Shown here piece by piece: positions 1,234-52,216 of a stretch of DNA of 64,000 bases (position 1 is the stretch's first letter; each line of letters opens with the position of its first letter). A program made the position numbers and the translations under genes. A model generated the notes under the pieces. The model did not search any database. It was not told the DNA's origin and worked only from the letters and a program-made list of their open reading frames with translations. The stretch comes from Candidatus Korobacter versatilis (GTDB taxonomy: Bacteria; Acidobacteriota; Terriglobia; Terriglobales; Acidobacteriaceae): contig JACPNR010000011.1 in assembly GCA_016185395.1 (NCBI GenBank), positions 62,001-126,000 on the forward strand. The letters run 5' to 3'.

Positions 1234-1342
1234 AGTTCTCAGTATCCAGTTCTCAGTTCTGAGGCAAATCAAGAGCTTAGGAAAAGCTGGGCGAGGGTGT
1301 GCTCGGCAATAAGTGAGCGCTGAGAACCGAGAACTGAGAACT
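1234..1342. repeat. word-repeat hairpin element A
   Basis: Left arm 1234-1263 repeats AGTTCTCAG. Right arm 1320-1342 repeats its complement CTGAGAAC. The loop is about 56 bases. It sits between two convergent genes, starting 2 bases after the stop of the small membrane protein, and its right end overlaps the TAG stop of the minus-strand gene. It uses the same word as element J, which carries a gene. Confidence 0.85.
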
Positions 1343-2264
1343 AGTTATTGCGATTCTGGTCGTCGGGAATCTCGCGGTCGGGGATCGGCTGCGGATTCTG
1401 CGGCTGAGCGTTCGGGTTCTGCTGCTGCTGTTGCTGCTGCATCTGTTGCAGTTCTTGCAGCAGTTGTTCGGGGGTCTTGACCTGGCCGGGCTGCTGCTGT
1501 TCTTGCTGGGGCTGTTGCTGCTCGGGCTGTGCCTGCTGGATCTCTTCCGCCGGGGCATCCTCCGGCGGGCCTTCTTCGTCGGATTGTTCGTCGGGATCAG
1601 GCCGTTGGACCATCGGCCGGGGGACGGGGTTCGACGCGACCGTGGTCTCCGTCGCCGATGGAGCACCCGCCTTCGGCATGAGCACCACGCGCGCGACCAA
1701 GGCCGGGTCGGTGGGCGAGCCGACGATGGCGAAGTTGAAGCGCGAGCCATCGAGCAGCGCCGCCAGGATATCTTTCGGCGCGCCGGGGCCGAGCTTGGCA
1801 TAGACGCGGTCGGCGCTCGAGACGCCACCCATCTCGAACTGCGCGCCGGTCTGCGCGCGCACCGAGTTCAGCACGTCTGCCATGGTCGAGTTGTTGGCGA
1901 GGATGCTGAGCTTTCCGTGGTTGAAAGTGACCGTGGGACGCGTCGGCGGGAGCTGCTCCGGCTTCGGCGGCGGAGGCGCCTGCACCGGTTGTTCGGCCTG
2001 CGCCTGGTGCTTGCCGTTCTTCCCCTTGGCCTTCGTCGTGAAAGGCTTGGCCGCGGCAGTCTTCGCCGGTGTCTTGGTCGCGGTCATCGCGGCCGCGGTG
2101 GGGCGCGACGCCGGTGCTGTTTGCGTCCTGGTGGGCGCCGGAGATGCCGCGCTCGGCGGGTGTACGAAACGCCATGCCGGGCCGGTCTGTCCCTGGACGG
2201 GCAGGCACACCCCCGTCGCGAGCAAGAAGGCTAGAAACCCGGCGCGATGGGACCAGCGAGGCAT
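1341..2264 (-). CDS. exported Pro/Gln-rich protein with a secretin-type STN-like region
   Basis: 307 residues from ATG 2264; an upstream in-frame extension crosses another gene and is rejected. A signal peptide (residues 1-25) is followed by an Ala/Thr/Lys/Pro linker. The middle segment, roughly 110-190, reads TVTFNHGKLSILANNSTMADVL and onward and resembles the short STN domain found before secretin or TonB proteins. The tail is a low-complexity Gln/Pro/Glu run. No secretin pore domain is present. It may be a periplasmic pilotin-like or peptidoglycan-adjacent protein; this is inference. It ends within hairpin element A. Confidence 0.7.
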   Translation of the reverse strand: MPRWSHRAGFLAFLLATGVCLPVQGQTGPAWRFVHPPSAASPAPTRTQTAPASRPTAAAMTATKTPAKTAAAKPFTTKAKGKNGKHQAQAEQPVQAPPPPKPEQLPPTRPTVTFNHGKLSILANNSTMADVLNSVRAQTGAQFEMGGVSSADRVYAKLGPGAPKDILAALLDGSRFNFAIVGSPTDPALVARVVLMPKAGAPSATETTVASNPVPRPMVQRPDPDEQSDEEGPPEDAPAEEIQQAQPEQQQPQQEQQQPGQVKTPEQLLQELQQMQQQQQQQNPNAQPQNPQPIPDREIPDDQNRNN

Positions 2265-2480: not shown

Positions 2481-3473
2481 ATGACCATTCGACGCATCCT
2501 GAATCTCTTCGTTCTCCTGCTTTGCATTCCCGCATTCGCGGCGGCCGAGAGCTGCCTGACCACCGGCGACATGGACCCGGCGACGAAGAGCGCGATCGAG
2601 TCGGCCGCGCGCCAGATGTATGGCTATACCGTTGCCGGGGACGTGGCCTCGATGCGGGCCAGCGCCATCCCCAGCCTGGCGGGGAACTTTGGCGGCATCG
2701 AGCGCACCGTGATCGGCAACAAGGACGCCTTTGCCGGCACGCAGCCGAACATCTACTCCACGTATATTCTCGACGCGACCGGCGGGCCCGCCACCATCGA
2801 CACCGCGATGTTCGTCTGCGGCGTGTACAACTCGGCCGAACGCATCCAGTTCTCCATCCCGAACCTGCCGGCGGCGAAGTACGCGATCGTCATCATGGAC
2901 GCGAACGGGCCAAAGGGGCCGTACTGGCTTTCCGTGATCTTGCGGCAGATGGGCAATGGCTGGAAGCTGGGCGGGTTCTATCCCAAGCCGCGCAAAGTCG
3001 GCGACAAGGGAGCGGGGTGGTACCTCACGCAGGCGCGTGACTATCGCGCGAAAGGCGAGCTGCACAACGCCTACTTCTATTACGTCACCGCGCGCGACCT
3101 CGCGCTGCCCGTCTCGTTCATGATCACGCGGCCAGTGGAGAAGCTCGATGGCGAAGCGCAACCCATCGTGCCCAAGGACCTGCCGGGGGATTCTCCGATG
3201 ACGCTCGCGGCGCCCAGCGGCAAGACCTACCAGATCACGCAGCTCTTCCCGGTGCAGGTCGGCGACGGCATGAACCTCGTCATCAAGTACAAGGCGCTCG
3301 CCGACGTGAACGACACGCGCACGAGCTTTGCCAACAACATGGAGCTGATCAAGGCGTTCGCGCAGCGCTATCCGGAGTACAAGTCGGCCTTTGCCGGCTA
3401 CGTGGCGCGCGCGGTGGACCCCGCCAGCGGCGCCGATTACGGCACGGTGCTGGGAATGAACGACCTGAGATAA
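2481..3473 (+). CDS. secreted protein of unknown function, paralogue of the gene at 60125
   Basis: 330 residues from ATG 2481; a GTG at 2472 in the same frame is less likely because the signal peptide starts cleanly at MTIRRILNLF. Mature residues contain a helical stretch ending DYRAKGELHNAYFYYVTARDL and a C-terminal block KAFAQRYPEYKSAFAGYV. Both blocks recur in modified form in the 60125-61102 protein (RYPEYREVFAGIIVRA; GHSLNSALLYSAAL), so the two are paralogues of one exported family. The function is unknown. It is transcribed alone, divergent from the 1341-2264 gene and convergent with ligD. Confidence 0.85.
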   Translation: MTIRRILNLFVLLLCIPAFAAAESCLTTGDMDPATKSAIESAARQMYGYTVAGDVASMRASAIPSLAGNFGGIERTVIGNKDAFAGTQPNIYSTYILDATGGPATIDTAMFVCGVYNSAERIQFSIPNLPAAKYAIVIMDANGPKGPYWLSVILRQMGNGWKLGGFYPKPRKVGDKGAGWYLTQARDYRAKGELHNAYFYYVTARDLALPVSFMITRPVEKLDGEAQPIVPKDLPGDSPMTLAAPSGKTYQITQLFPVQVGDGMNLVIKYKALADVNDTRTSFANNMELIKAFAQRYPEYKSAFAGYVARAVDPASGADYGTVLGMNDLR

Positions 3474-3571
3474 GTCTGCAGTCTGCAGTCTTCAGTCTTG
3501 GGCTTGCGGCCGCGCACCACGCGCGGCCGTTTTCTTTTGTTCTGAGGACCGACGACTGAAGTCTGAAGACT
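3474..3571. repeat. word-repeat hairpin element B with an internal terminator
   Basis: The left arm, about 3474-3499, repeats AGTCTGC/AGTCTTC. The right arm, about 3550-3571, repeats GACTGAAGTCTGAAGACT. It fills the whole gap between two convergent genes, beginning at the TAA of one and overlapping the TAG of the other. The loop holds a GC-rich hairpin and T-tract, listed separately. Confidence 0.8.
3508..3538 (+). terminator. intrinsic terminator of the 2481-3473 gene
   Basis: Stem GGCCGCGC (3508-3515) pairs with GCGCGGCC (3521-3528) across loop ACCAC, and GTTTTCTTTT follows. It lies 35 bases after the stop codon, in the loop of element B. Confidence 0.8.
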
Positions 3572-5648: not shown

Positions 5649-6341
5649 ATGACGGCCGAACGAGCCAAAGAGAAACCTTTGAGCGAGGTGGTGCGCGAGC
5701 GCCGCGCCACGCCGCACTTCGATCCCTCCGCGCCGGTCCACGAAGGCGACCTGGCGAAGATCCTCAGCGCGGGACTGCACGCGCCCTCGGGCTACAACCT
5801 GCAGCCGTGGCGGTTCGTGGTGGTGCGCGATCCCGAGCAGCGCAAAAAGCTGCGCGCGGCGGCGATGAACCAGCCCAAGGTAGAAGAGGCGCCGGTGGTC
5901 ATCGTGGCGTGCGGCGACAAGGAAGGATGGAAGAAGGGCGACCTCGACGACGCGCTCGAGATGGCCAAAGAGCACGGGTACGGTGGTGATGCCGAGCACG
6001 CGGTGGTCAAGAAGAACGTCACCGGGTTCCTCGGTTCGCAGCCTGGCTCGGCGGGAGGCATTGCGCCCGACCTGGGGGTGTGGGTCAATCGCCACGTGAT
6101 GATCGCCTTCACCACGGTGATGTGGATGGCCGAAGCGCTCGGCTATGACACCGCGCCGATGGAAGGCTTCGACGAAGCGTCGGTGAAGAAGCTGTTGCAC
6201 ATCCCGGACTCCGTGCGCGTGGTCGCGCTGCTCGCCATCGGGCATCGCAAGGGCGAGGACAAGCCCTACGGAGGCCGTTTCCCCATCGAGCGCCTGTGCT
6301 TCGCCGACGATTGGGGCAAGCCCCTCAAGCTGCCTGAGTAG
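5649..6341 (+). CDS. nitroreductase-family FMN oxidoreductase
   Basis: 230 residues with the nitroreductase fold signature. RRATPHFDPSAP near the N-terminus and GLHAPSGYNLQPWRFVVVRD at about 43-62 contribute to FMN binding. C-terminal VVALLAIGHRK is the usual late strand. AGGAGG at about 5635-5640 precedes ATG 5649. These enzymes reduce nitro groups, quinones or enones with NAD(P)H; the substrate here is unknown. It is transcribed divergently from ligD. The TAG stop abuts hairpin element D. Confidence 0.88.
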   Translation: MTAERAKEKPLSEVVRERRATPHFDPSAPVHEGDLAKILSAGLHAPSGYNLQPWRFVVVRDPEQRKKLRAAAMNQPKVEEAPVVIVACGDKEGWKKGDLDDALEMAKEHGYGGDAEHAVVKKNVTGFLGSQPGSAGGIAPDLGVWVNRHVMIAFTTVMWMAEALGYDTAPMEGFDEASVKKLLHIPDSVRVVALLAIGHRKGEDKPYGGRFPIERLCFADDWGKPLKLPE

Positions 6342-6428
6342 CAGTACCCGGTACTCGGTACCCAGTACCCGGTCGGCGACCCAATCCTTGGCTGAGTACT
6401 GGGTACTGGCAACGTACTGAGTACTGCC
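6341..6428. repeat. word-repeat hairpin element D
   Basis: Left arm 6341-6373 repeats AGTACCCGGTACTCGGTACC. Right arm 6392-6428 repeats TGAGTACTGGGTACTGGC. It starts at the last base of the nitroreductase stop codon. The word GTACT/GGTACC is not used by any other element here. Confidence 0.8.
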
Positions 6429-9362: not shown

Positions 9363-9437
9363 CACCACAGAGACACGGAGACACAGGGGAAGCAGAAAAG
9401 AAATAGGATTCCTCCGTGTCTCGGTGCCTCTGTGGTG
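9363..9437. repeat. word-repeat hairpin element E
   Basis: Left arm 9363-9389 (CACCACAGAGACACGGAGAC...) and right arm 9411-9437 (CCTCCGTGTCTCGG... TGTGGTG) are complementary. The loop is about 21 bases. It lies in the gap before the NUDIX gene, 15 bases upstream of its ATG. The same word forms element G at 10224. Confidence 0.85.
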
Positions 9438-9452
9438 GACTCAGGTTTGAGC

Positions 9453-9887
9453 ATGAAGCGCGAATATCCCGACCGTCCGCTGATCGGCGTGGGCGCGATC
9501 ATCATCGAGCGCGGGCGCGCGCTCGTCATCCGCCGCGCCACCGAGCCGCTCAAGGGCGAGTGGTCCATCCCGGGCGGCATGCTCGAGTTGGGGGAGACGC
9601 TGCGCACGGGCGTGGCGCGCGAGGCGAAAGAAGAGACTGGGCTGGAGGTGGTCCCGCTCGAAGTGCTCGACGTGTACGACCGCATTGTCGCCGATCCCGA
9701 CGGACGCACGCGCTACCACTACGTCCTCATCGATTACCTGTGCGAGGTCTCGGGCGGGGAACTGCGTGCCGCGAGTGACGCGAGTGAGGTGCGATGGATC
9801 ACGGAGGATGAGCTGAAAGGCTTTGCCATAGCAGATTCAGCGGAGGAAGTGATCCGCAAGGGATTCGACAAAGTAGCTAGGAGTTAG
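9453..9887 (+). CDS. NUDIX hydrolase
   Basis: 144 residues from ATG 9453. The full Nudix box is at residues 42-64 (GMLELGETL...REAKEETGL), with REAKEE supplying the metal ligands. GEWSIPGG precedes the box as in ADP-ribose/nucleotide hydrolases. The substrate cannot be told. The last codons (KVARS) and the TAG stop come from the left arm of hairpin element F, so the element probably replaced the original C-terminus. Element E lies just upstream. Confidence 0.92.
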   Translation: MKREYPDRPLIGVGAIIIERGRALVIRRATEPLKGEWSIPGGMLELGETLRTGVAREAKEETGLEVVPLEVLDVYDRIVADPDGRTRYHYVLIDYLCEVSGGELRAASDASEVRWITEDELKGFAIADSAEEVIRKGFDKVARS

Positions 9888-9951
9888 TAGTTAGGAGTTA
9901 GCGCGCGGGCGCATTCACTTGCTAGCTCCTAACTACTAGCTACTAACTCCT
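9874..9951. repeat. word-repeat hairpin element F
   Basis: Left arm 9874-9901 repeats TAGGAGTTAGTAG. Right arm 9920-9951 repeats CTCCTAACTACTAGC. The loop is 18 bases. The NUDIX stop codon (9885-9887) lies inside the left arm. Confidence 0.85.
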
Positions 9952-9955
9952 CTAT

Positions 9956-10223: not shown

Positions 10224-10294
10224 CCACCACAGAGACACAGAGGCACAGAGGAATCCAGATGAAAAAACTCCGTGCCTCAGTGCCTCCGTGGTGG
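10224..10294. repeat. word-repeat hairpin element G
   Basis: Left arm 10224-10251 (CCACCACAGAGACACAGAGG...) and right arm 10268-10294 (CTCCGTGCCTCAGTGCC...GTGGTGG) are complementary. The loop is 16 bases. The word matches element E 800 bases away, but the loops differ. Confidence 0.85.
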
Positions 10295-11748: not shown

Positions 11749-11827
11749 TAACCACGAAGGACACGAAGGAACACGAAGGATTTCCATTTTTCTTTCCTTG
11801 GTGAACCTTCGTGACCTTCGTGGTTTA
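11749..11827. repeat. word-repeat hairpin element H
   Basis: Left arm 11749-11779 repeats CACGAAGGA. Right arm 11796-11827 repeats CCTTCGTG. It fills the gap between convergent larB and purB and its right end overlaps the purB stop. The word is shared with element U at 45359. Confidence 0.85.
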
Positions 11828-13132
11828 GCTTTTCTTGGACTTCCCGAAGACCCGCTCGAAGATCTTGTCCACGTTCTTGAGCTGGCGCTTGAGGTCGAAG
11901 GCGCGCTCGATCTGCTTGCGCGGCACGCGCGCCGTGACCTGCTTGTCCTTCATGATGAGCTGCTTGAAGTTCTCGCCCTGCTTCCACGCGCGCATCGCGT
12001 TCTTCTGCACCTGGCGATAGGCCTGCTCGCGCGACATGCCATGCTCGGCGAGGTCGAGCAGCACTTGTCCGCTGAAGACGAGGCCTCCGGTGGACTCGAG
12101 GTTGGCGAGCATGCGCTTGGGATAGACCAGCAGCGTGTCGATCAGGTTCGTGGTCTTCGCCAGCATGTAGTTCAGCAGGATGGTGGAATCCGGCAGGATG
12201 ACGCGCTCCACCGACGAGTGCGAGATATCGCGCTCGTGCCACAGCGCCACGTTCTCGAAGGCCGCCTGCGCGTTCCCGCGGATAACGCGCGCGAGTCCGC
12301 ATATCTGCTCGCACGTCACGGGATTGCGCTTGTGCGGCATCGCCGACGAGCCCTTCTGCTTCTCGCTGAAGAATTCCTCGGCTTCACGCACTTCCGTGCG
12401 CTGCAGGTGACGGACCTCGAGCGCGACCTTCTCGAGCGTGGCTGCGATCACGGCCAGCGTCGCCAGGTAGTTGGCGTGACGGTCGCGTGAGATGACCTGC
12501 GTGGTGATGGAATCGACTTCGAGACCGAGCCGCTCGCATATCTGCTCTTCAAACTCGGGTTCGAGGTGCGCCAGGTTCCCGACGGCGCCGGAGAGCTTGC
12601 CGACGCGCATCTCTTCTGCCGCGCGCTCGAAGCGGGCGATGTCGCGCTCGACCTCGGCGTACCAGGTGGCCAGCTTCAGGCCGAAAGTGATGGGTTCGGC
12701 ATGGATGCCGTGCGTGCGGCCGATCTGCGGCGTGCGCTTGAACTCGAAGGCGCGGCGCTTGAGCACGTCGCGCAGCTTGTCGAGGTCCTTGCGGATGATG
12801 CTGCTTGCGTCCTTGACCTGCAGTGCCTGCGCCGTGTCCACCACGTCGTTGGAGGTAAGCCCGTAGTGCAGCCAGCGCGCTTGCGGTCCGACTTTTTCCG
12901 CGACCGCGGTAGTGAAGGCGATCACGTCGTGCTTGACCTCGGCCTCGACCTCGTGGATGCGCTTGAGGTCGAAGCCGCCTCTATCGCGGATGGCGGCGGC
13001 GGCTTCCGCGGGGACGATGCCGGCGGCGGCCAGCGTCTCAGTGGCGGCCACTTCCACCTTCAGCCACATGCGGAACTTGTTCTCGTCACTCCAGATGCGG
13101 CCCATCTCAGGACGCGTATAGCGAGGGATCAC
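11825..13132 (-). CDS. purB: adenylosuccinate lyase
   Basis: 435 residues from GTG 13132, chosen because AAGGAG lies 8 bases upstream; the longer frame upstream has no family similarity. It catalyses two fumarate-releasing steps of purine synthesis (SAICAR to AICAR, adenylosuccinate to AMP). The signature SSAMPHKRNPVTCEQI is present with the mobile catalytic loop, as are GLTSNDVVDT and IGRTHGIHAEPITFG, which hold the catalytic His. It ends in a Lys-rich tail (FGKSKKS) beside hairpin element H. Confidence 0.96.
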   Translation of the reverse strand: MIPRYTRPEMGRIWSDENKFRMWLKVEVAATETLAAAGIVPAEAAAAIRDRGGFDLKRIHEVEAEVKHDVIAFTTAVAEKVGPQARWLHYGLTSNDVVDTAQALQVKDASSIIRKDLDKLRDVLKRRAFEFKRTPQIGRTHGIHAEPITFGLKLATWYAEVERDIARFERAAEEMRVGKLSGAVGNLAHLEPEFEEQICERLGLEVDSITTQVISRDRHANYLATLAVIAATLEKVALEVRHLQRTEVREAEEFFSEKQKGSSAMPHKRNPVTCEQICGLARVIRGNAQAAFENVALWHERDISHSSVERVILPDSTILLNYMLAKTTNLIDTLLVYPKRMLANLESTGGLVFSGQVLLDLAEHGMSREQAYRQVQKNAMRAWKQGENFKQLIMKDKQVTARVPRKQIERAFDLKRQLKNVDKIFERVFGKSKKS

Positions 13133-19731: not shown

Positions 19732-20808
19732 ATGAAGTCAGGGATCATTGGTTTACCGCAGGTGGGCAAGAGTTCGCTGTTCAAGATCCTCACCAAGGCG
19801 CACGTGGACGCCGCCGCCTACGCCAAGGCGAACCTCGGCGTGGCCAAGGTGCCGGACGAGCGTCTCGATAAGCTCTCTGCGCTCTACAGCCCGAAGAAGA
19901 CGGTGCATGCGAGCATCGAGTACGTGGACGTGGCCGCCGTGGGCGAAGAAGCGCTGAAGGAAGCCGCCTACGCCAACACGTTGCGCAACGTGGATTCGCT
20001 CATCCACGTGGTGCGCGCGTTCGAGAATCCCGCGGTCGCGCACGTGGGCGAGATCGATCCGCTGCGCGACATCAAGAACGTGGAGTTCGATCTGATGGTC
20101 TCCGACCTCGGGCAGATCGAGAAGCGCATGGAGCGTCTCGAGCGCGACCTGAAACGTGGGAAGGCGCCCGAGCTGGTGCGCGAGCACGAGGTGCTGGTGC
20201 GCGCGAAGGCGTGGCTCGAAGCGGAGAAGCCGCTGCGCGAGATGGAGATCACGCCGGACCAGGAAAAAGCCATCCGCGGCTTCATGTTCCTGAGCCAGAA
20301 GCCCATCCTTTATGTATTGAACATCAGCGAGAGCAGCGACCTCGGCAAAGACCTCGACGCCGCCGTCGAGAAGTTCAACCTGAAAGAAGTGGCGTCACGG
20401 CCCGGCGCGGGGGCGACGGCTATCTGCGGCAAGGTCGAGGCGGAGCTGGCGGAAATGAGCGACGCAGACGCGGCCGACTTTCTCTCCAGCTATCAACTGA
20501 CCGAGAGCGGCCTGGCGCGCCTGATCCGCAAGACGTACGAACTGCTGGGGCTGATCTCGTTCTTCACCGTCGGCGAAGATGAATGTCGCGCGTGGACCAT
20601 TCGCCGCGGATGGCGCGCGGTGGAAGCCGCCGGCGCCATCCACTCCGACCTGGAAAAACATTTCATCCGCGCGGAGACCATCCACTGGGACCAGCTGCTG
20701 GAAGCCGGTTCGGAGGCGAACGCGCGCGGCAAAGGCACGCTGCGCCTCGAGGGCAAGGACTACGTGGTTCGCGATGGGGACGTGATGCACATTCGGCACT
20801 CGGGCTGA
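19732..20808 (+). CDS. ychF: ribosome-associated ATPase/GTPase YchF
   Basis: 358 residues, normal length for YchF/Ola1. The P-loop is GLPQVGKSS (7-15). The G3 region and a coiled-coil insert follow, and a TGS domain closes the protein (FFTVGEDECRAWTIRRGWRAVEAAGAIHSDLEKHFIRAE). YchF prefers ATP and is linked to translation quality control and stress. Its TGA (20806-20808) is the first base triplet of hairpin element J. The 300 bases upstream, shared with lolD, contain no gene; I see only likely divergent promoters there. Confidence 0.96.
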   Translation: MKSGIIGLPQVGKSSLFKILTKAHVDAAAYAKANLGVAKVPDERLDKLSALYSPKKTVHASIEYVDVAAVGEEALKEAAYANTLRNVDSLIHVVRAFENPAVAHVGEIDPLRDIKNVEFDLMVSDLGQIEKRMERLERDLKRGKAPELVREHEVLVRAKAWLEAEKPLREMEITPDQEKAIRGFMFLSQKPILYVLNISESSDLGKDLDAAVEKFNLKEVASRPGAGATAICGKVEAELAEMSDADAADFLSSYQLTESGLARLIRKTYELLGLISFFTVGEDECRAWTIRRGWRAVEAAGAIHSDLEKHFIRAETIHWDQLLEAGSEANARGKGTLRLEGKDYVVRDGDVMHIRHSG

Positions 20809-21231
20809 GTTCTCAGTTCTTGGTTCTCAGTTCTCCGCCCATACGAGGAGGAGGAAGATGGGACAGTCCTACCAGGAGCTGATTGCCTGGCAGAAAGCCA
20901 TGGTACTGGTGACCGACATCTATCGGGCGACCCGTACTCTCCCGAAGGAAGAGACCTACGGCCTCACATCACAGATTCGTCGCGCTGCAGTCTCGGTGCC
21001 GAGTAACATCGCGGAAGGACAGGCGAGGCAATCACAGAAGGAGTTCAGGCAATTCCTGAGTCACGCTCGGGGTTCCTTGGTCGAGGTTGAGACGCAATTT
21101 CTTATCGCCCGCAACCTGGGCTTCTTGAATGAGCTGGCCTCAAAGGCACTGCTGGATTCGGTCGCGGGACTCGGCCGCATTTTGAATGGACTGATTGCTT
21201 CGATACGACTGAGAACTGAGAACTGAGAACT
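20806..21231. mobile_element. hairpin element J carrying a four-helix-bundle gene
   Basis: Left arm 20806-20836 repeats GTTCTCAGTTCT. Right arm 21207-21231 repeats CTGAGAACTGAGAAC, the exact complement. The 370-base interior is one complete gene with its own RBS. The element begins in the ychF stop codon and its last bases abut the TTG start of the ZIP gene. It is the only element in the window with cargo and shares its word with the empty element A. I infer that it is the autonomous form of the family. Confidence 0.75.
20858..21226 (+). CDS. four-helix-bundle protein (S23/23S rRNA intervening-sequence type)
   Basis: 122 residues, the usual length. Family residues: LIAWQKAMVLVTDIY in helix 1, YGLTSQIRRAAVSVPSNIAEG spanning helices 2-3, SQKEFRQFLSHARGSLVEVETQ in helix 3, and a last amphipathic helix. 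A purine-rich RBS (GAGGAGGAGGAAG) abuts ATG 20858. The last residues RLRTEN and the stop codon are encoded by the right hairpin arm. Relatives are encoded by stem-loop intervening sequences in 23S rRNA and by Avd of diversity-generating retroelements. The biochemical role is not established; binding to a nucleic-acid hairpin is inference. Confidence 0.92.
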   Translation: MGQSYQELIAWQKAMVLVTDIYRATRTLPKEETYGLTSQIRRAAVSVPSNIAEGQARQSQKEFRQFLSHARGSLVEVETQFLIARNLGFLNELASKALLDSVAGLGRILNGLIASIRLRTEN

Positions 21232-21971
21232 TGTCCCCCATCGCCATCTCCGTATTGCTGGGCATCACGGCGGCGAGCGCCAACGTCTTTGGCGGCGCCA
21301 TCATGGTGCAGCGGCACTGGGAGCGGCGCTACTTGAACTATTTCATCGCGCTCGGCTCCGGGTTCATGCTCGCCACCGCGATCCTGGAAATGATCCCCGA
21401 GAGCCTGAAGCCGGAGCTCAACCGGCACGGCTGGGCGCCTTTCTTCATCCTGGGCGGATATCTCATCGTCCATCTGTTCGAGCACACGCTCACGCCGCAC
21501 TTCCACTTCGGCGAAGAGACGCACGAGCACGAGGTCACGCCGCCGCACCGCAGCCTGTCAGTCTTGTTCGGATTACTCATCCATGCTTTCTTCGACGGCA
21601 TCGCCATCGCGAGCGGCTTCCTGGTCTCGACTTTTCTGGGATGGATCGTCTTCATCGCCGTCTTCCTGCACAAGGTGCCGGAAGGATTCACGGTCGCGTC
21701 GGTGATGCTGGCCAGCGGACGCAGCCGCTTCAAGTCCTGGGGCGCGTCCGTGATGCTGGGCGGCGCGACGCTGCTCGGCGTGCTGACCATGGCCGTCTTC
21801 CGTCACGGCGTGGACGCGGGCTTGCCACTCTCCGCCGGTGTGACCATCTACGTGGCGGCCACCGACCTGCTGCCCGAGGTCAATCGCGAGCCGGGAGTGA
21901 AGATGGCACTGGTCGTCTTCCTCGGCGTCGGCCTGATGTTCGCGCTCGACCACCTCTTCCACGTTCACTAG
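21231..21971 (+). CDS. ZIP-family divalent metal transporter
   Basis: 246 residues from TTG 21231, the only upstream start that leaves the first helix complete. About seven or eight membrane helices. The metal-binding motifs are HAFFDG (H118, D122) and HKVPEG (H147, E151), and a His-rich loop lies at about 90-106 (HFHFGEETHEHE). It probably imports zinc or iron. The TTG directly follows the right arm of element J, so insertion may have displaced an earlier start and RBS. Confidence 0.9.
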   Translation: MSPIAISVLLGITAASANVFGGAIMVQRHWERRYLNYFIALGSGFMLATAILEMIPESLKPELNRHGWAPFFILGGYLIVHLFEHTLTPHFHFGEETHEHEVTPPHRSLSVLFGLLIHAFFDGIAIASGFLVSTFLGWIVFIAVFLHKVPEGFTVASVMLASGRSRFKSWGASVMLGGATLLGVLTMAVFRHGVDAGLPLSAGVTIYVAATDLLPEVNREPGVKMALVVFLGVGLMFALDHLFHVH

Positions 21972-35615: not shown

Positions 35616-38600
35616 TCAATGAAAATCGTGAGAAGAAGTCTCGGCCTGGGTCACGCGCAGCGGTTCCACGCGCTCGGCCTTCACCGAAAGCACGTTGTCT
35701 TGGTTCTGCAGCACGCCTTCGATGAGCAGGAAACGTTCGCGCGCCAGCTCGGACCGGTAGCGATCATAGAGGTCCGGCGTGACGATGGCGTTGGCGATGC
35801 CGGTCTCGTCTTCCAAACTTAAAAACACAAAGCCTTTGGCCGTCCCGGGCCGTTGCCGCGCAATGACGCACCCGGCCACCTTCAATCTTCTTCCGCTGCG
35901 GAAGCGCGGCAGGTCGATGGCGCGAAAGACGCCGCGCTCGATCATCTGTCGGCGATGGAAGGCCATGGGATGAGGCCCGGCGGTCAGCCCGGCGCCGCGG
36001 AAGTCGGCGACCAGGCGCTCTTCGTCGGTCATGCGGGCGAGCGGTGAAGGCGCGTCGGGCGCGGGGATATCGCGCAGCAGCGGGCCGACGAGGCGGCCGG
36101 AGCGCTCGACCTGCCAGAGGGCGTCGCGGCGATGGAAAGGGTTTCCAGTTTCCAGTTTCCCGTTTCCGGAGGCGGAAACCTCAACGCCGAGGCGCAGAGA
36201 CGCCGAGGAGTTCCTTTCTTTCTTGTTATTCTCCGCGCCTCCGCGCCGCGGCGTTGCGGTTGAAACTGGAAACCGGAAACTGGAAACCGGAAACTGAGAG
36301 ATGAAGTTCAGGGCGCCGACTTCCGCCAACTTCACCAGTTCGTCTTTGCGCAGCTCGGGGACGCGGCGGGCGAGGTCGTCGATGGAAGCGAACGGGGCGC
36401 ACCCTCGTTCGCGGACGATGGCCTGGCCGGCTTCCTCGCGCAGGCCTTTGACGTAGCGCAGGCCCAGTCGAAGAGCGAAGTTGCGAGTTGCGAGTTGCGA
36501 GCTTCGAGTAGCCGATTTTGAAACTTGAAACTCGAAACTTGAAACTTCCTCGAGCGTGCAGAGCCAGCCGGACTTCGTCACGTCGATGGCTTTCACCAGC
36601 AGGCCGTGGCGCTGCGCGTCTTTTATCAGCGTGGAGGGATGGTAGAAGCCCATGGGTTGGTTGTTGAGCAGGGCGGCGGTGAAGGCGGCGAGGTAGTGGC
36701 ACTTGAGCCACGCGCTGGCGTAGGCGAGCAGCGCGAAGCTGGCGGCGTGCGATTCGGGAAAGCCGTAGAGCGCGAACGAGGTGATGGCCTTCACGATGGC
36801 GTCCTGCTGCGCGCCGGTGATGCCGTTGCGCGTCATGCCGGTGCGCAGTTTTACTTCCACATCGCTCATGCGCGCCTCGGCGCGCTTGAAGCCGAAGGCA
36901 CGACGCAGCTCTTCCGCTTGCCCGCCGGAGAATCCCGCGGTGATCATCGCCATGCGCAGCAGTTGTTCCTGGAAGAGGGGAACGCCGAGCGTCCGCTCCA
37001 GTGCCGGCTCTAAAGAAGCGTGCGGATACTCGACCGGCTCGCGTCCCTGGCGGCGCTTGAGATACGGATGCACCATGTTCCCGACGATCGGCCCCGGCCG
37101 GATGATGGCGACCTGCACCACGATGTCGTAGAAGTTGCGCGGCTGCAGGCGCGGCAGGCAGGACATCTGCGCGCGGCTCTCGATCTGGAACATGCCGACG
37201 GTGTCCGCCTTCGACAACGCGGCGTAGACGGCGGGGTCGTCGGGCGGAAGCTGCGCGAGGTCAACGTCTTCTTTGTAGTCGCGGCCGATGGTGGCGATGG
37301 TGTCTTCGAGCACGGCCATCATGCCGAGGCCGAGCAGGTCGACCTTCACGATGCCGAGATCGGCGCAGTCGTCCTTGTCCCACTGCACGACGACGCGCCC
37401 GGGCATCGCCGCCGGCTCGAGCGGGACGACGGAATCGAGCTGTCCCTGGCACACCACCATGCCGCCGGAGTGCTGGCCGAGGTGGCGCGGCAGGTCCTGC
37501 ACGGCGTGCATGAGCTGGTAGAACTTGCGGATGCGCGGATGGCGCAGGTCAAAGCCGGCGTCGCGGAACTGCCGCTCGCGCGTGTCCCTGGGATCGTGGA
37601 ACTCCCACGAGCCGACCTGGCGCGCCAAGCGGTCGAGCGTCTCGGGATCGAAGCCCAGCGTCTTGCCGACCTCGCGCGCGGCCGACTTGCCGCGGTAGGT
37701 GATGACGTTGGCGGTCATCGCGGCGCCGCGCTCGCCGTAACGCTGGTAGACGTACTGGATGGCGCGCTCGCGCTGCTCGCCGGAGGGCAGGTCGAGATCG
37801 ATATCCGGCCACTCGCCGCGTTCTTCGGAGAGAAAGCGCTCGAAGAGCAGGTCCATGCCGACGGGATCGACGGCGGTGATGCCGAGCGAGTAGCAGACGG
37901 CGGAGTTGGCGGCGGAACCGCGGCCTTGTACGAGGATGCCGCGCTCGCGGCAGAAGCGGACGATGTCCCACACGATGAGGAAGTAGCCGGCGAGCTGGAG
38001 TTTCTCGATGAGGCCAAGCTCGCGGTCGAGCTGGCGGCGCGCGCGCGGCCACAGGTGGCGCTTGCCCGCGGTGAGATAACGCAAGCGCGCGCCTTCGCCG
38101 GTGCGCTGGCGCAGGAACGAGTCCATCGTTTCGTTCTCTGGAACGGGATAGCGCGGAAACTCGTAGCCCAGGCCGGCGAGCGTGAACTGCAATCGCGATG
38201 ACAGCTCGCCGGTATTCGCGATGGCTTCGGGAAGGTCGGCGAAGAGCCGCTCCATCTCTCGCGCGGGCTTCAGGCAGCGCTCGGAGTTCTGCGCGAGCAG
38301 CCGCCCGGCGCGGTCGAGCGTCGAGTGTTCGCGGACGCAGGTGAGCACGTCGAGCACTTCGCGCTCGTTGGGCGCGGCGTAGGCCACGCCGTTGGTGGCG
38401 ACGAGCGGCAGGCCAAGCTCGCGCGCCAGTTCGACCGCGACCTGGTTGCGCGCTTCTTCGGCGCGGTCGTAGTGGCGCTGCAGTTCGACATAGACGTTGC
38501 CGTGGCCGAAGGTCGCGACGAGTTTTTCCAACTCGCGGCGGGCTTCTGTCTTCCCTGATGCACCCCCGCCGCCGCGCGCGAGGGCGGCGGCCAGCGGGCC

Positions 38601-39086
38601 GTGCTGATCTCCAGTCAGGCAGATGAGTCCGCGGGCGTGCTGCGCCAGTTCGTCGTAGTCCGTGGCGCGCGCCGCGGCGCGCTCGCCGTGCTGGGGATGC
38701 TTGGGCAGGCGGAGCTTCATCCTGGTCACGAGCCGGCAGAGGTTCTGGTAGCCGGAGCGATCGGCGACGAGGAGGGGGATTGCAGATTGCTGATTGCAGA
38801 TTGCAGAATTGGCCGGGCTTGATTCTGCAATCTGCAATCCGCAATCTGCAATTGTTTTGCCTCCGCGCCTCGGCGGTGAAAAGGATATTTCCGAACCAAT
38901 GTGCGCTTTCACGCCGGTCTTTCTTGCGGCCAGATGGAAGCGCGGGGCGCCGTAGACGCCGTCGCGGTCGGTGAGGGCGATGGCGGGCAGCGCGAGCGCG
39001 GCGGCGTAGGCGGCCAGCTCCTCGGGCAGGGAAGCGCCGGCGAGGAAACTGAAGGCGGAGCGGGCGTGAAGTTCTACGTAAGTCAT
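35616..39086 (-). CDS. dnaE2: error-prone DNA polymerase DnaE2/ImuC with three in-frame hairpin inserts
   Basis: 1156 residues, about 80-120 longer than usual. An N-terminal PHP domain (YVELHARSAFSFLAGAS), the catalytic acidic motif WPDIDLDLPSG near 425-431, the finger/thumb region and an OB domain closing with SSHDFH all fit ImuC. It does mutagenic lesion-bypass synthesis with ImuA and ImuB. The extra length is the translation of word-repeat hairpins at residues about 78-104, 847-870 and 930-982. Stops are avoided throughout, so the enzyme may still be active; the first insert falls in the PHP domain and could impair it. Confidence 0.93.
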   Translation of the reverse strand: MTYVELHARSAFSFLAGASLPEELAAYAAALALPAIALTDRDGVYGAPRFHLAARKTGVKAHIGSEISFSPPRRGGKTIADCGLQIAESSPANSAICNQQSAIPLLVADRSGYQNLCRLVTRMKLRLPKHPQHGERAAARATDYDELAQHARGLICLTGDQHGPLAAALARGGGGASGKTEARRELEKLVATFGHGNVYVELQRHYDRAEEARNQVAVELARELGLPLVATNGVAYAAPNEREVLDVLTCVREHSTLDRAGRLLAQNSERCLKPAREMERLFADLPEAIANTGELSSRLQFTLAGLGYEFPRYPVPENETMDSFLRQRTGEGARLRYLTAGKRHLWPRARRQLDRELGLIEKLQLAGYFLIVWDIVRFCRERGILVQGRGSAANSAVCYSLGITAVDPVGMDLLFERFLSEERGEWPDIDLDLPSGEQRERAIQYVYQRYGERGAAMTANVITYRGKSAAREVGKTLGFDPETLDRLARQVGSWEFHDPRDTRERQFRDAGFDLRHPRIRKFYQLMHAVQDLPRHLGQHSGGMVVCQGQLDSVVPLEPAAMPGRVVVQWDKDDCADLGIVKVDLLGLGMMAVLEDTIATIGRDYKEDVDLAQLPPDDPAVYAALSKADTVGMFQIESRAQMSCLPRLQPRNFYDIVVQVAIIRPGPIVGNMVHPYLKRRQGREPVEYPHASLEPALERTLGVPLFQEQLLRMAMITAGFSGGQAEELRRAFGFKRAEARMSDVEVKLRTGMTRNGITGAQQDAIVKAITSFALYGFPESHAASFALLAYASAWLKCHYLAAFTAALLNNQPMGFYHPSTLIKDAQRHGLLVKAIDVTKSGWLCTLEEVSSFEFQVSKSATRSSQLATRNFALRLGLRYVKGLREEAGQAIVRERGCAPFASIDDLARRVPELRKDELVKLAEVGALNFISQFPVSSFRFPVSTATPRRGGAENNKKERNSSASLRLGVEVSASGNGKLETGNPFHRRDALWQVERSGRLVGPLLRDIPAPDAPSPLARMTDEERLVADFRGAGLTAGPHPMAFHRRQMIERGVFRAIDLPRFRSGRRLKVAGCVIARQRPGTAKGFVFLSLEDETGIANAIVTPDLYDRYRSELARERFLLIEGVLQNQDNVLSVKAERVEPLRVTQAETSSHDFH
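36141..36297. repeat. nested word-repeat hairpin element L, in frame within dnaE2
   Basis: Outer arms 36141-36169 (word TTTCCAG) and 36262-36297 (word CTGGAAA) enclose inner arms 36182-36210 (word GCCGAGG) and 36231-36257 (CCTCCGCG...GGCGTTG). The inner pair uses the word of element C, so one element seems to have inserted into another. It codes for residues about 930-982 of DnaE2. Confidence 0.75.
36477..36548. repeat. word-repeat hairpin element M, in frame within dnaE2
   Basis: Left arm 36477-36508 repeats GAAGTTGCGAGTT. Right arm 36520-36548 repeats GAAACTTGAAACTCG. The arms are complementary with several mismatches. The word is that of element Q in imuB. It codes for residues about 847-870 (SSFEFQVSKSATR). 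Confidence 0.7.
38778..38853. repeat. word-repeat hairpin element N, in frame within dnaE2
   Basis: Left arm 38778-38810 repeats GATTGCAGATTGC. Right arm 38821-38853 repeats CTGCAATCTGCAATC. The loop is 10 bases. It codes for residues about 78-104 (IADCGLQIAE...). Just past the right arm is a GCCTCGGCGG stretch like the C/L word. Confidence 0.85.
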
Positions 39087-39199: not shown

Positions 39200-39265
39200 A
39201 GCTCTCAGCATTCAGCTATCAGCGCTCAGCAACAGCAAAGGTTTGGCTGAAGGCTGATAGCTGAT
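39200..39265. repeat. word-repeat hairpin element P
   Basis: Left arm 39200-39230 repeats CAGCTATCAGCGCTCAGC. Right arm 39245-39265 is GGCTGAAGGCTGATAGCTGAT. It lies in the imuB-dnaE2 gap, 11 bases after the imuB stop. Confidence 0.7.
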
Positions 39266-39275
39266 CGCCGAACGC

Positions 39276-40940
39276 CTAGTCGTACGCGCCATAGACGAAC
39301 CAATCTCCTGTGGTGACGTCGCGGTACATCCGGTAGAGCGCGGGGCCGGGCGTGGTTTTAGAAAAGCCGGTTTTGAGGGAGACGTCCCACTCGTCGCGCT
39401 GCCAGCCGTCGTTCGTCCACCACTCACCGGAGGTGCGCCACGGGCCGGCGCAGGCGGTGACCTCGGCGCGCGCGTGCTCCAAAAAAGAAACGCGCACCGG
39501 CTTCGCGCCCTGCATCTCGACGCGCGCGCGCAGTGGGGGACGGAACAAGCGCAGCGCGAGACGCGCTGCGCTTGAGTTTCGAGTTTCGAGTTTCAAGTTT
39601 CGAGAACCGCGCTTTTGAGACTCGAAACTCGAAACTTGAAACTTCCTGATCCGGTGCGCGTCGGGACGGTGCGAATCGAGCACTTCCGGCGCGCCGATGT
39701 TCGGTGCGCCGACGATGGCGGCGACGCGCGCGAGCAGCAGCTCCAGCTTTTCCGGCTCGGGCGCGACGGGGACGAAGAAGCCCTCCTGCGTGGCGCGCGG
39801 CTGCACCGGCCCGGCGCGCAGCGCGAGCTTGGCGACGGGCGCGCCGGGGGGATGCGCGGCGAGATCGAGCTGCAGAAGCTTGAGCAGGACGCGCGGGTCC
39901 TGCATCGGGACGGGAAGTCGCAGCGTACGGCAATGACGATTGTCGAATGACGAATGACGAATATCTCCGGACGAGCTTTCATTCGACATTCGACATTCGG
40001 CATTCGTCATTGGTTCTAACTCACAGGTGAGCCGCAGCTCGTTGGTCGCGAGCGAGCGCGCTTTTAAACGGCCGCATAACTGTTCCAGCATCCGGTGCAG
40101 CAGAAAGGCCAGCGGCTCGAGGTTCTCGACGGGATATTCCAGCTCGCACGTCTCTTCGAACACCAGCGGCGGCTCGAAGGGGACGAGCGTGCGCGTCCAC
40201 TCGCCGCGCGCGAGGCGCTGGAGCAGCAACCCGCGCTGTCCCAGGCGCTCGACCACGGCGACCGAGGGCAGCGCGGCGAAGGAACGCAGCGTGCGCATCC
40301 CCCAGCGTTCCATCACTTCGGCAAACCGCTGAACCGGTTGCGCGCCATCGAAATCGCTGGGCCTTTCGGCTTCCGGTGCGAGGATCTCGACCGGCAGCAG
40401 GCCGAGGCGATCGGCGGTCTGGTCGGGCGGGATGACGGTCACGCCGGCAAAGCCGCGGGCGGCGTAGACCGCGGCGTCGGGATTGGCAGCGACGGCGACG
40501 TGCGCCTCCACGCCGAGGCCGGAGGCGCGCCGCGCCAGGTCGCGTCCGAGCTTTGCGGGCGGACCGAACAAGGCCTCGAGGCCGGCGAGGTCGAGCACGA
40601 CGGTGTCCGCGGCGGTGGCTTCCACGCGCGGCGAGAAGGCGCAGGCGGCGTCGAGTAACGCGGCGTAGGTGGCGGCCTCCTGCGCGGGCGAGCGCGACAG
40701 CAGCCGGACGTTTTCCGCACCCCCTTCCGCGCCCTTTTCCGTACCCCCGCGATAGCTCTCGGCTTCGAGGCGGGTCATGCCCGGGGCGATGCCGAGCGAG
40801 CGCGCGCGTTCGTTCGCGGCCATCACTTTCTCAAGCGGCGGCTTGCCCGCGAGCACCGCGACCGCGTGCTCGCGCAGCGCAGGTTGGGCACGGACGATCG
40901 CTTCGACGGGGAGGTCCGGGATGTAGAGGGCGGCAAACAT
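39276..40940 (-). CDS. imuB: ImuB, catalytically inactive Y-family polymerase subunit, with two in-frame inserts
   Basis: 554 residues from ATG 40940; ATG 40955 lies within a word-repeat arm and is rejected. MFAALYIPDLPVEAIVRAQP has no active-site Asp where DinB has one, so it is the scaffolding ImuB form. C-terminal GDWFVYGAYD is typical. ImuB links ImuA, DnaE2 and the beta clamp in SOS mutagenesis. Hairpin elements R (residues about 311-337) and Q (about 433-457) are translated in frame, giving runs such as TNAECRMSNESS and RKFQVSSFE. Confidence 0.9.
   Translation of the reverse strand: MFAALYIPDLPVEAIVRAQPALREHAVAVLAGKPPLEKVMAANERARSLGIAPGMTRLEAESYRGGTEKGAEGGAENVRLLSRSPAQEAATYAALLDAACAFSPRVEATAADTVVLDLAGLEALFGPPAKLGRDLARRASGLGVEAHVAVAANPDAAVYAARGFAGVTVIPPDQTADRLGLLPVEILAPEAERPSDFDGAQPVQRFAEVMERWGMRTLRSFAALPSVAVVERLGQRGLLLQRLARGEWTRTLVPFEPPLVFEETCELEYPVENLEPLAFLLHRMLEQLCGRLKARSLATNELRLTCELEPMTNAECRMSNESSSGDIRHSSFDNRHCRTLRLPVPMQDPRVLLKLLQLDLAAHPPGAPVAKLALRAGPVQPRATQEGFFVPVAPEPEKLELLLARVAAIVGAPNIGAPEVLDSHRPDAHRIRKFQVSSFESQKRGSRNLKLETRNSSAARLALRLFRPPLRARVEMQGAKPVRVSFLEHARAEVTACAGPWRTSGEWWTNDGWQRDEWDVSLKTGFSKTTPGPALYRMYRDVTTGDWFVYGAYD
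39572..39644. repeat. word-repeat hairpin element Q, in frame within imuB
   Basis: Left arm 39572-39604 repeats GAGTTTCGAGTTTC. Right arm 39617-39644 repeats CTCGAAACTTG. The loop is 12 bases. Same word as element M. Confidence 0.85.
39932..40011. repeat. word-repeat hairpin element R, in frame within imuB
   Basis: Left arm 39932-39962 repeats AATGACGAATGACG. Right arm 39980-40011 repeats CATTCGACATTCGG. The arms are complementary with few mismatches and a 17-base loop. Confidence 0.85.
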
Positions 40941-52030: not shown

Positions 52031-52046
52031 CTCCGGCAGTATAGCG

Positions 52047-52141
52047 ACTGCCGAAGTGCCGAATTGCCGAAGTGCCGAACTTGAGAACGTGCGGGCGGCT
52101 GTTATCCGATCCGGCAATTCCGCCCTTCCGCACTTCGGCAG
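52047..52141. repeat. word-repeat hairpin element W
   Basis: Left arm 52047-52080 repeats TGCCGAAGTGCCGAAT. Right arm 52112-52141 (CGGCAATTCCGCCCTTCCGC...) is complementary with few mismatches. The loop is about 30 bases. It sits upstream of the Rieske gene. Confidence 0.8.
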
Positions 52142-52216
52142 TCCCTCTTCGGAGTTTGCCGTGTTTCATGCCTGTTTCTTCCGGTTACTTAGGTTGGTTC
52201 CACGGTATCTGCCTGA

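Follow-up and report, generated by a model that had tools for sequence, protein, structure and literature searches.

The window, a 64,000-nucleotide stretch of the Candidatus Korobacter versatilis genome, carries between two protein-coding genes what is probably an autonomous copy of a mobile hairpin element. Its protein, a four-helix bundle of the S23/IVP family, would recognize the element's own 7-nt word, and gene-less hairpins would be the non-autonomous copies. Comparison of sequences establishes block-like presence and absence, the occurrence of one element at several loci, ends built of word arrays, a coupling of word to protein, and empty hairpins whose words match. The initial annotation had proposed an autonomous/non-autonomous pair in which a small protein binds or copies hairpins and spreads empty copies. 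Of this proposal, mobility and the word match within a genome are borne out, and the binding, copying, and spreading by the protein are what we infer. The element and its neighbors are organized as follows.

19732..20808, + strand: ychF, left neighbor, aligned to the empty site of the genus-mate G001
20805..20837, + strand: 5′ arm, a word repeat of about four AGTTCTC heptamers beginning at the ychF TGA stop codon
20858..21226, + strand: intact IVP/S23 four-helix-bundle gene, 122 aa (PF05635, TIGR02436, fold match)
21204..21234, + strand: 3′ arm, GAGAACT heptamers complementing the 5′ arm, overlapping the end of the ORF and touching the TTG start of the ZIP gene
21231..21971, + strand: right neighbor, ZIP-family zinc transporter gene

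A gene inside a word-repeat hairpin had been annotated at 20806–21231; both coordinates and content are correct, and the S23/IVP ORF is intact. The core arm sequences, AGTTCTCAGTTCTTGGTTCTCAGTTCTC (20808–20835) and ACTGAGAACTGAGAACTGAGAACT (21208–21231), are 92% complementary over 24 nt and are separated by 376 nt. GGAGGAGG is found upstream of the IVP ORF (20858–21226). In profile searches, this ORF matched PF05635 (1e-38, 132 bits, cut-off 33.8) and TIGR02436 (1e-37, 129 bits, cut-off 24), with a subthreshold match to the bAvd profile (28.7 bits vs. the NCBI cut-off of 80). RNA folding of the element gives z = −3.6 relative to shuffled sequences, and the stem that closes the structure is made up of the two arms. 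It is intergenic between ychF and the ZIP gene, not within a 23S rRNA helix, and its coding content is a single ORF matching PF05635 only, without a known recombinase or a Y1 transposase.

The genome of the window (G000; 2.5 Mb, 90% complete) contains seven IVP matches. All seven lie between complementary arms of heptamers, and the word differs from copy to copy (AGTTCTC, AGTGGCT, TTAGGAG, GAGTACC, GTTGGTC, GTGGACA, and GAATGAC). One of these copies is frameshifted and one truncated, indicating that IVP copies decay. We then compared 157 IVP genes and their flanks from G000, 40 relatives, and named genomes of more than ten phyla: Acidobacteriota, Bacteroidota, Planctomycetota, Bacillota, Pseudomonadota, Desulfobacterota, Verrucomicrobiota, Kiritimatiellota, Nitrospirota, Spirochaetota, Chloroflexota, and others. 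With a complementarity score of at least 28 as the criterion, arms were detected at 123 of the 157 genes (78%), compared with 10 of 766 pseudo-genes of equal size within the studied loci (1.3%) and 2.4% of mismatched flanks; at about a fifth of the IVP genes no arms were detected. The suggestion that relatives of the gene are likewise flanked by complementary word repeats thus holds for most of the family, including most copies on viral contigs and cyanobacterial plasmids. Identity at a lag of seven reaches 71% within the arms, compared with 25% for the remaining lags and for neighboring DNA. Seven is the best lag in 105 of the 123 armed elements, and 14 prefer a lag of eight. The median aligned arm is 31 nt long, or roughly four and a half words, and the 5′ arms are polarized relative to the gene (AGT 225 vs. 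ACT 28). As arm mismatches comprise 161 G–U and 185 A–C pairs, without a G–U excess, there is no sign of selection for pairing in the sense RNA. A location of these loci in 23S rRNA was rejected, long conserved 23S motifs being missing from 157 of 157. Within 6 kb, locus L064 (G007:C13:26974–35250) holds three IVP genes that belong to another, more distantly related clade with AATTG/ATTTG-type words. Word-armed IVP genes are also carried by IMG/VR contigs (L243–L263), putatively viral and possible vehicles between phyla.

The ychF–ZIP junction of G001 measures 2 nt and lacks the window element. As an IVP copy recurs between ychF and ZIP in other genera, this gap may reflect loss as readily as gain, and element loci can be old and vertically inherited. 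On related conjugative plasmids, the unit lies between two genes in Trichormus variabilis and Scytonema, and the empty sites of Nostoc linckia, Fremyella, and Aulosira, 97–98% identical, read AAAAAGTAATTAACAAATAA. GTAAT flanks the occupied site on both sides, a 5-bp duplication seen in this one clean comparison and ambiguous or absent elsewhere (window vs. G001; Nostoc junctions). The arm of the Scytonema copy is shorter by exactly two words, arm length changing in steps of seven. One element was found at three loci, with similarity stopping at the arms. Different plasmids sharing a Nostoc operon have a copy at one junction, a copy with another word at the next, or none, and presence/absence was further observed between Picosynechococcus 7003 and 7002, between Anabaena 90 and Dolichospermum, and among Nostoc plasmids. 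Plasmid copies also split cas6–cas4, cas10–cmr3, and nrd gene pairs, with element-free relatives for the cas cases; the copies within CRISPR-cas operons of cyanobacterial plasmids are L265 and L267 (cas6–cas4) and L272 (cas10–cmr3). A decayed copy on pC052_E of Nostoc C052 (L332) retains the left arm and the N-terminal part of the IVP, followed by a deletion up to the next gene; relatives have the full unit or nothing at this site.

Presence/absence at 97–98% identity, the 5-bp duplication, and the occurrence of one element at three loci together show a discrete mobile unit. The empty sites anticipated by the initial annotation were found both in G001 and on cyanobacterial plasmids. As these sites contain no hairpin, the arms arrive with the gene, and we rejected the landing of an IVP gene in a pre-existing hairpin. 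A recent duplication involving two Calothrix plasmids was discarded as evidence of transposition: the neighboring genes match too, and it is uninformative.

About two dozen other hairpins of this architecture had been counted in the window. Our count is lower: 27 heptamer arrays, but about ten paired heptamer hairpins that contain no gene, plus four whose words are 8 or 9 nt long, compared with one hairpin in the reversed-sequence control. These gene-less hairpins are the following.

1240..1350: AGTTCTC, the word of the window element; G001 contigs break here in another word, GTCCACA
3470..3571: CAGTCTT; slightly diverged words in G001
6341..6413: GTACCCG/GTACTCG
9365..9435: 8-nt words, CACAGAGA
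9872..9955: TTAGGAG, the word of the IVP element L003 of G000; missing from G001 (9874–9955), with one base between the aligned flanks
10226..10292: 8-nt words, CACAGAGG
11752..11828: words of about 9 nt, ACGAAGGA; dispersed in G001 also
36138..36297: GTTTCCA
36476..36549: GTTGCGA/GTTTCGA; the G001 site holds an octamer CACAGAGA hairpin
38775..38854: ATTGCAG; the G001 site holds an octamer CACAGAGA hairpin
39211..39270: TCAGCTA/TCAGCGC, degenerate
39570..39646: GAGTTTC; both arms are GAGTTGC/GAGCTGC in G001, a concerted change
39934..40015: GAATGAC, the word of the IVP relic L007 of G000
52046..52143: 8-nt words, GTGCCGAA

Several junctions carry a hairpin in both G000 and G001 with wholly different words. 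These differences, together with the arms that once changed in concert, suggest a rapid turnover of gene-less copies. In G001, the hairpins built of 8- or 9-nt words (CACAGAGA, ACGAAGGA) have many dispersed copies, and the octamer CACAGAGA hairpins have no clear IVP partner in G000. Arms resembling CACAGAGG flank an IVP gene in a Nitrospirae MAG (L133); the 8- and 9-nt hairpins may therefore represent a further word class within this system. Some G001 contigs end inside word arrays (L158, position 14443; L159, position 1); such hairpins therefore appear to break short-read assemblies, and their copies would be undercounted.

The word follows the protein. We compared words among all armed elements and, for unrelated loci, dropped pairs with shared flanking ORFs. 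From the bin below 40% protein identity up to that of 65–80% (n = 22 pairs), a common word was found in 2.3, 4.0, 5.8, 9.2, 18.9, and 63.6% of unrelated-locus pairs. The Mantel correlation between word and protein is 0.17 (0 of 2000 permutations), and the coupling drops off quickly below 60% identity. As it persists without the pairs having shared flanking ORFs, orthologous loci were rejected as its sole source. The antiparallel reading of the word is not common to similar proteins. The proteins of the five AGTTCTC elements group together: four of these elements lie between ychF and ZIP in different genera, and L079 is at an unrelated locus. The ychF–ZIP element is inverted in two genera (L078 and L080 vs. 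L001 and L011), as expected from recombination between arms or re-insertion. Similarly, AGTGGTT is common to a well-supported IVP clade at unrelated loci of Thiohalocapsa, Ruminococcus, and a Clostridia bacterium.

Within a genome, the words of empty hairpins agree better with those of the resident IVP genes than with IVP words from other genomes (22.0 vs. 17.7, sd 1.04, 0/2000); the matching words are TTAGGAG and GAATGAC in G000, GATTTGTG in G007, AGTGCTG in G039, and AGCTTCT in G008. Equal abundance of empty hairpins in genomes devoid of the gene would have spoken against the proposed pair. We counted 39 in 1051 kb from ten IVP-carrying relatives and four weak ones in 394 kb from seven relatives lacking IVP genes. 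Several IVP-carrying genomes have no empty hairpins in the 60–95 kb sampled, and some genomes lacking IVP genes do have word arrays.

An out-of-sample prediction came from the GGGAATC heptamers of Xanthomonas, which form 70 inverted pairs in X. campestris and were described with no protein partner (Rehm et al. 2015; PMC4692102): IVP genes of Xanthomonadaceae should have GGGAATC arms. Arms were found at 26 of 29 and 14 of 14 IVP loci in two sets, mostly with the words GGGAATC, GGGATTC, and GGGACTC. In the second set, 13 of the 14 proteins are identical to XCC0516 (2gsc) at 59–68 of 92 residues. Among 198 Xanthomonadaceae genomes, GGGAATC arrays are about 15-fold commoner in those with an IVP gene. 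Exact GGGAATCGGGAATC averages 32 per genome with IVP and 2.2 without (p 1e-10), and GGGAATC arrays are commoner where the IVP arms bear that word (p 6e-5), both p-values being inflated by shared ancestry.

We know of no catalytic activity in the S23/IVP family, which leaves strand transfer with no enzyme candidate encoded by the element. The model of the window protein (pLDDT 90) is matched best by 2gsc (Z 19.4, 1.9 Å over 115) and 2rld (Z 18.7), followed by the Avd proteins of diversity-generating retroelements (DGRs; 4dwl, Z 15.4; 8ub8, Z 16.2). The 2gsc crystal contains five chains, and this relative is a homopentamer (PMC4990558). Two candidate partner enzymes were considered. No RVT_1 reverse transcriptase gene was found in G000 or G001, both element-rich, and a reverse transcriptase was rejected as the partner in G000. 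Y1 transposase genes occur in most relatives, with eight in G000. In G025, four IVP loci have arms although no Y1 gene is present, which excludes this enzyme as a necessary partner of armed loci, and the density of empty hairpins does not follow Y1 counts in the sampled genomes.

Several known systems resemble parts of this unit. The 23S rRNA intervening sequences (IVSs) with S23p of Coxiella burnetii and Leptospira encode the same family within a stem-loop of about 430 nt around one ORF, and their mobility was suggested earlier; as in the window element, the ORF is enclosed by a stem of complementary ends. Known IVS copies, however, lie in 23S helices, whereas window-type copies lie between protein-coding genes, and the IVS literature cited here does not mention a link between word and protein, relatives lacking the gene, or unoccupied sites outside rRNA. 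The 5′ end of the Coxiella IVS has three tandem GACAGAT heptamers upstream of the S23p ORF, in a number that varies between strains (PMC4990558). As this IVS combines S23p, complementary ends, and heptamers, we read the 23S rRNA IVSs as a special case of the element. Heptamer repeats are known as the STRR of cyanobacteria, GGGAATC of Xanthomonas and Nostoc, and TAACTGA of Beggiatoaceae (PMC4692102; PMC4679880). Like them, the window element has tandem 7-nt words and is intergenic, but they were described as regulatory, G4-forming, or of unknown spread, with no protein partner, whereas here GGGAATC-type words are the IVP arms of Xanthomonadaceae. Searches of open-access literature turned up no link of S23/IVP genes to heptamer repeats outside rRNA, and a prior description may exist in subscription papers or preprints.

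REPINs, too, are small hairpins between genes, and their dispersal is attributed to a protein encoded separately and acting in trans, the RAYT. However, RAYTs are Y1 tyrosine transposases and REP ends are of a fixed GTAG/CGTC type, whereas IVP is an unrelated four-helix bundle with variable-word ends; the two systems have no defining component in common. DGR Avd shares the fold and a weak profile match, but the window protein scores far below Avd cut-offs and no reverse transcriptase was found in G000. MITEs and their parent ISs form autonomous/non-autonomous pairs with shared ends; in contrast, the IVP element lacks a known recombinase and its word-array ends differ between copies.

Other routes for the spread of the hairpins are conceivable. 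In a retro-mobility scheme, the transcript would fold, RNase III would free the hairpin, and a reverse transcriptase acting in trans would copy it back, with IVP in an Avd-like role. Avd sits in a reverse-transcriptase complex and has the IVP fold, RNase III cuts the IVS out of Coxiella RNA (PMC4990558), and the window element folds well as RNA, with arms polarized relative to the gene. Given two element-rich genomes devoid of RVT_1 and arm mismatches that bear no mark of sense-RNA pairing, we nevertheless consider this scheme unlikely. The IVP gene might instead be cargo, or a regulator, on hairpins mobilized by another enzyme, for instance a RAYT or IS200-like Y1 transposase. Enzymes of the Y1 family act on hairpins, their genes are widespread in the relatives, and word arrays occur in some genomes lacking IVP. 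This reading is improbable in view of the four armed elements of G025 and the independence of empty-hairpin density from Y1 counts, and cargo would leave unexplained why the word follows the protein.

The hairpins could also be stationary host structures, terminator-like, regulatory, or otherwise tied to 3′ ends, whose words shift by slippage and quasi-palindrome correction and which IVP, as a host protein, uses. This would account for the G000 and G001 junctions that hold hairpins with different words, for the conservation of the ychF–ZIP locus across genera, and for arm lengths that change by sevens. It would not account for clean presence/absence at 97–98% identity with a duplicated target, for one element recurring at unrelated loci and across phyla, or for IVPs inside CRISPR-cas and nrd pairs on plasmids, and we regard it as very unlikely. 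Short inverted repeats are common in DNA, and palindromes might surround an unrelated gene by chance or artefact, but the contrast between 78% and the two controls, together with the replication in Xanthomonadaceae with an independently published word, leaves this explanation a negligible probability.

We therefore return to the mobile hairpin element. Its unit consists of a 5′ arm of 7-nt words, a Shine-Dalgarno sequence, one S23/IVP gene, and a complementary 3′ arm. It would insert as a block at gene junctions, often within operons, and in time disappear or become inverted. Hairpins that have its word but no gene would be its non-autonomous relatives. An IVP ring may read the word, perhaps with each subunit contacting one 7-nt word of an arm that is single-stranded and oriented; the seven-base spacing on an oriented strand and the five chains of the relative 2gsc suggest this arrangement. 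The TRAP ring, which reads (G/U)AG repeats, offers an analogy for such reading. The protein would hold the folded element and recruit host replication or repair, or a nuclease, to copy it into a new junction. For the insertion chemistry, we favor help from host replication or repair on the folded strand. Slippage in sevens and the copying of one arm from the other could keep the arms alike, and insertion of the element into rRNA helices would have produced the 23S rRNA intervening sequences.

More tentatively, these elements may constitute an unrecognized class of mobile elements, present in at least ten phyla, whose ends are tandem 7-nt words in place of a fixed sequence. Each subunit of a cognate four-helix-bundle ring protein would recognize one word, word and protein would coevolve as lock and key, and the element would move without a known recombinase of its own. 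Such a class would unite S23/IVP proteins, 23S rRNA IVSs, and the heptamers of cyanobacteria and xanthomonads. If this is true, swapped words should abolish binding, and after loss of the IVP gene matching empty hairpins should no longer be gained and should slowly disappear. If the protein does move hairpins, this would be a mode of transposition without a known recombinase and with word-specific ends. The element brings three old puzzles within a single testable framework: what S23/IVP proteins do, how 23S rRNA IVSs arose, and how heptamer repeats spread.
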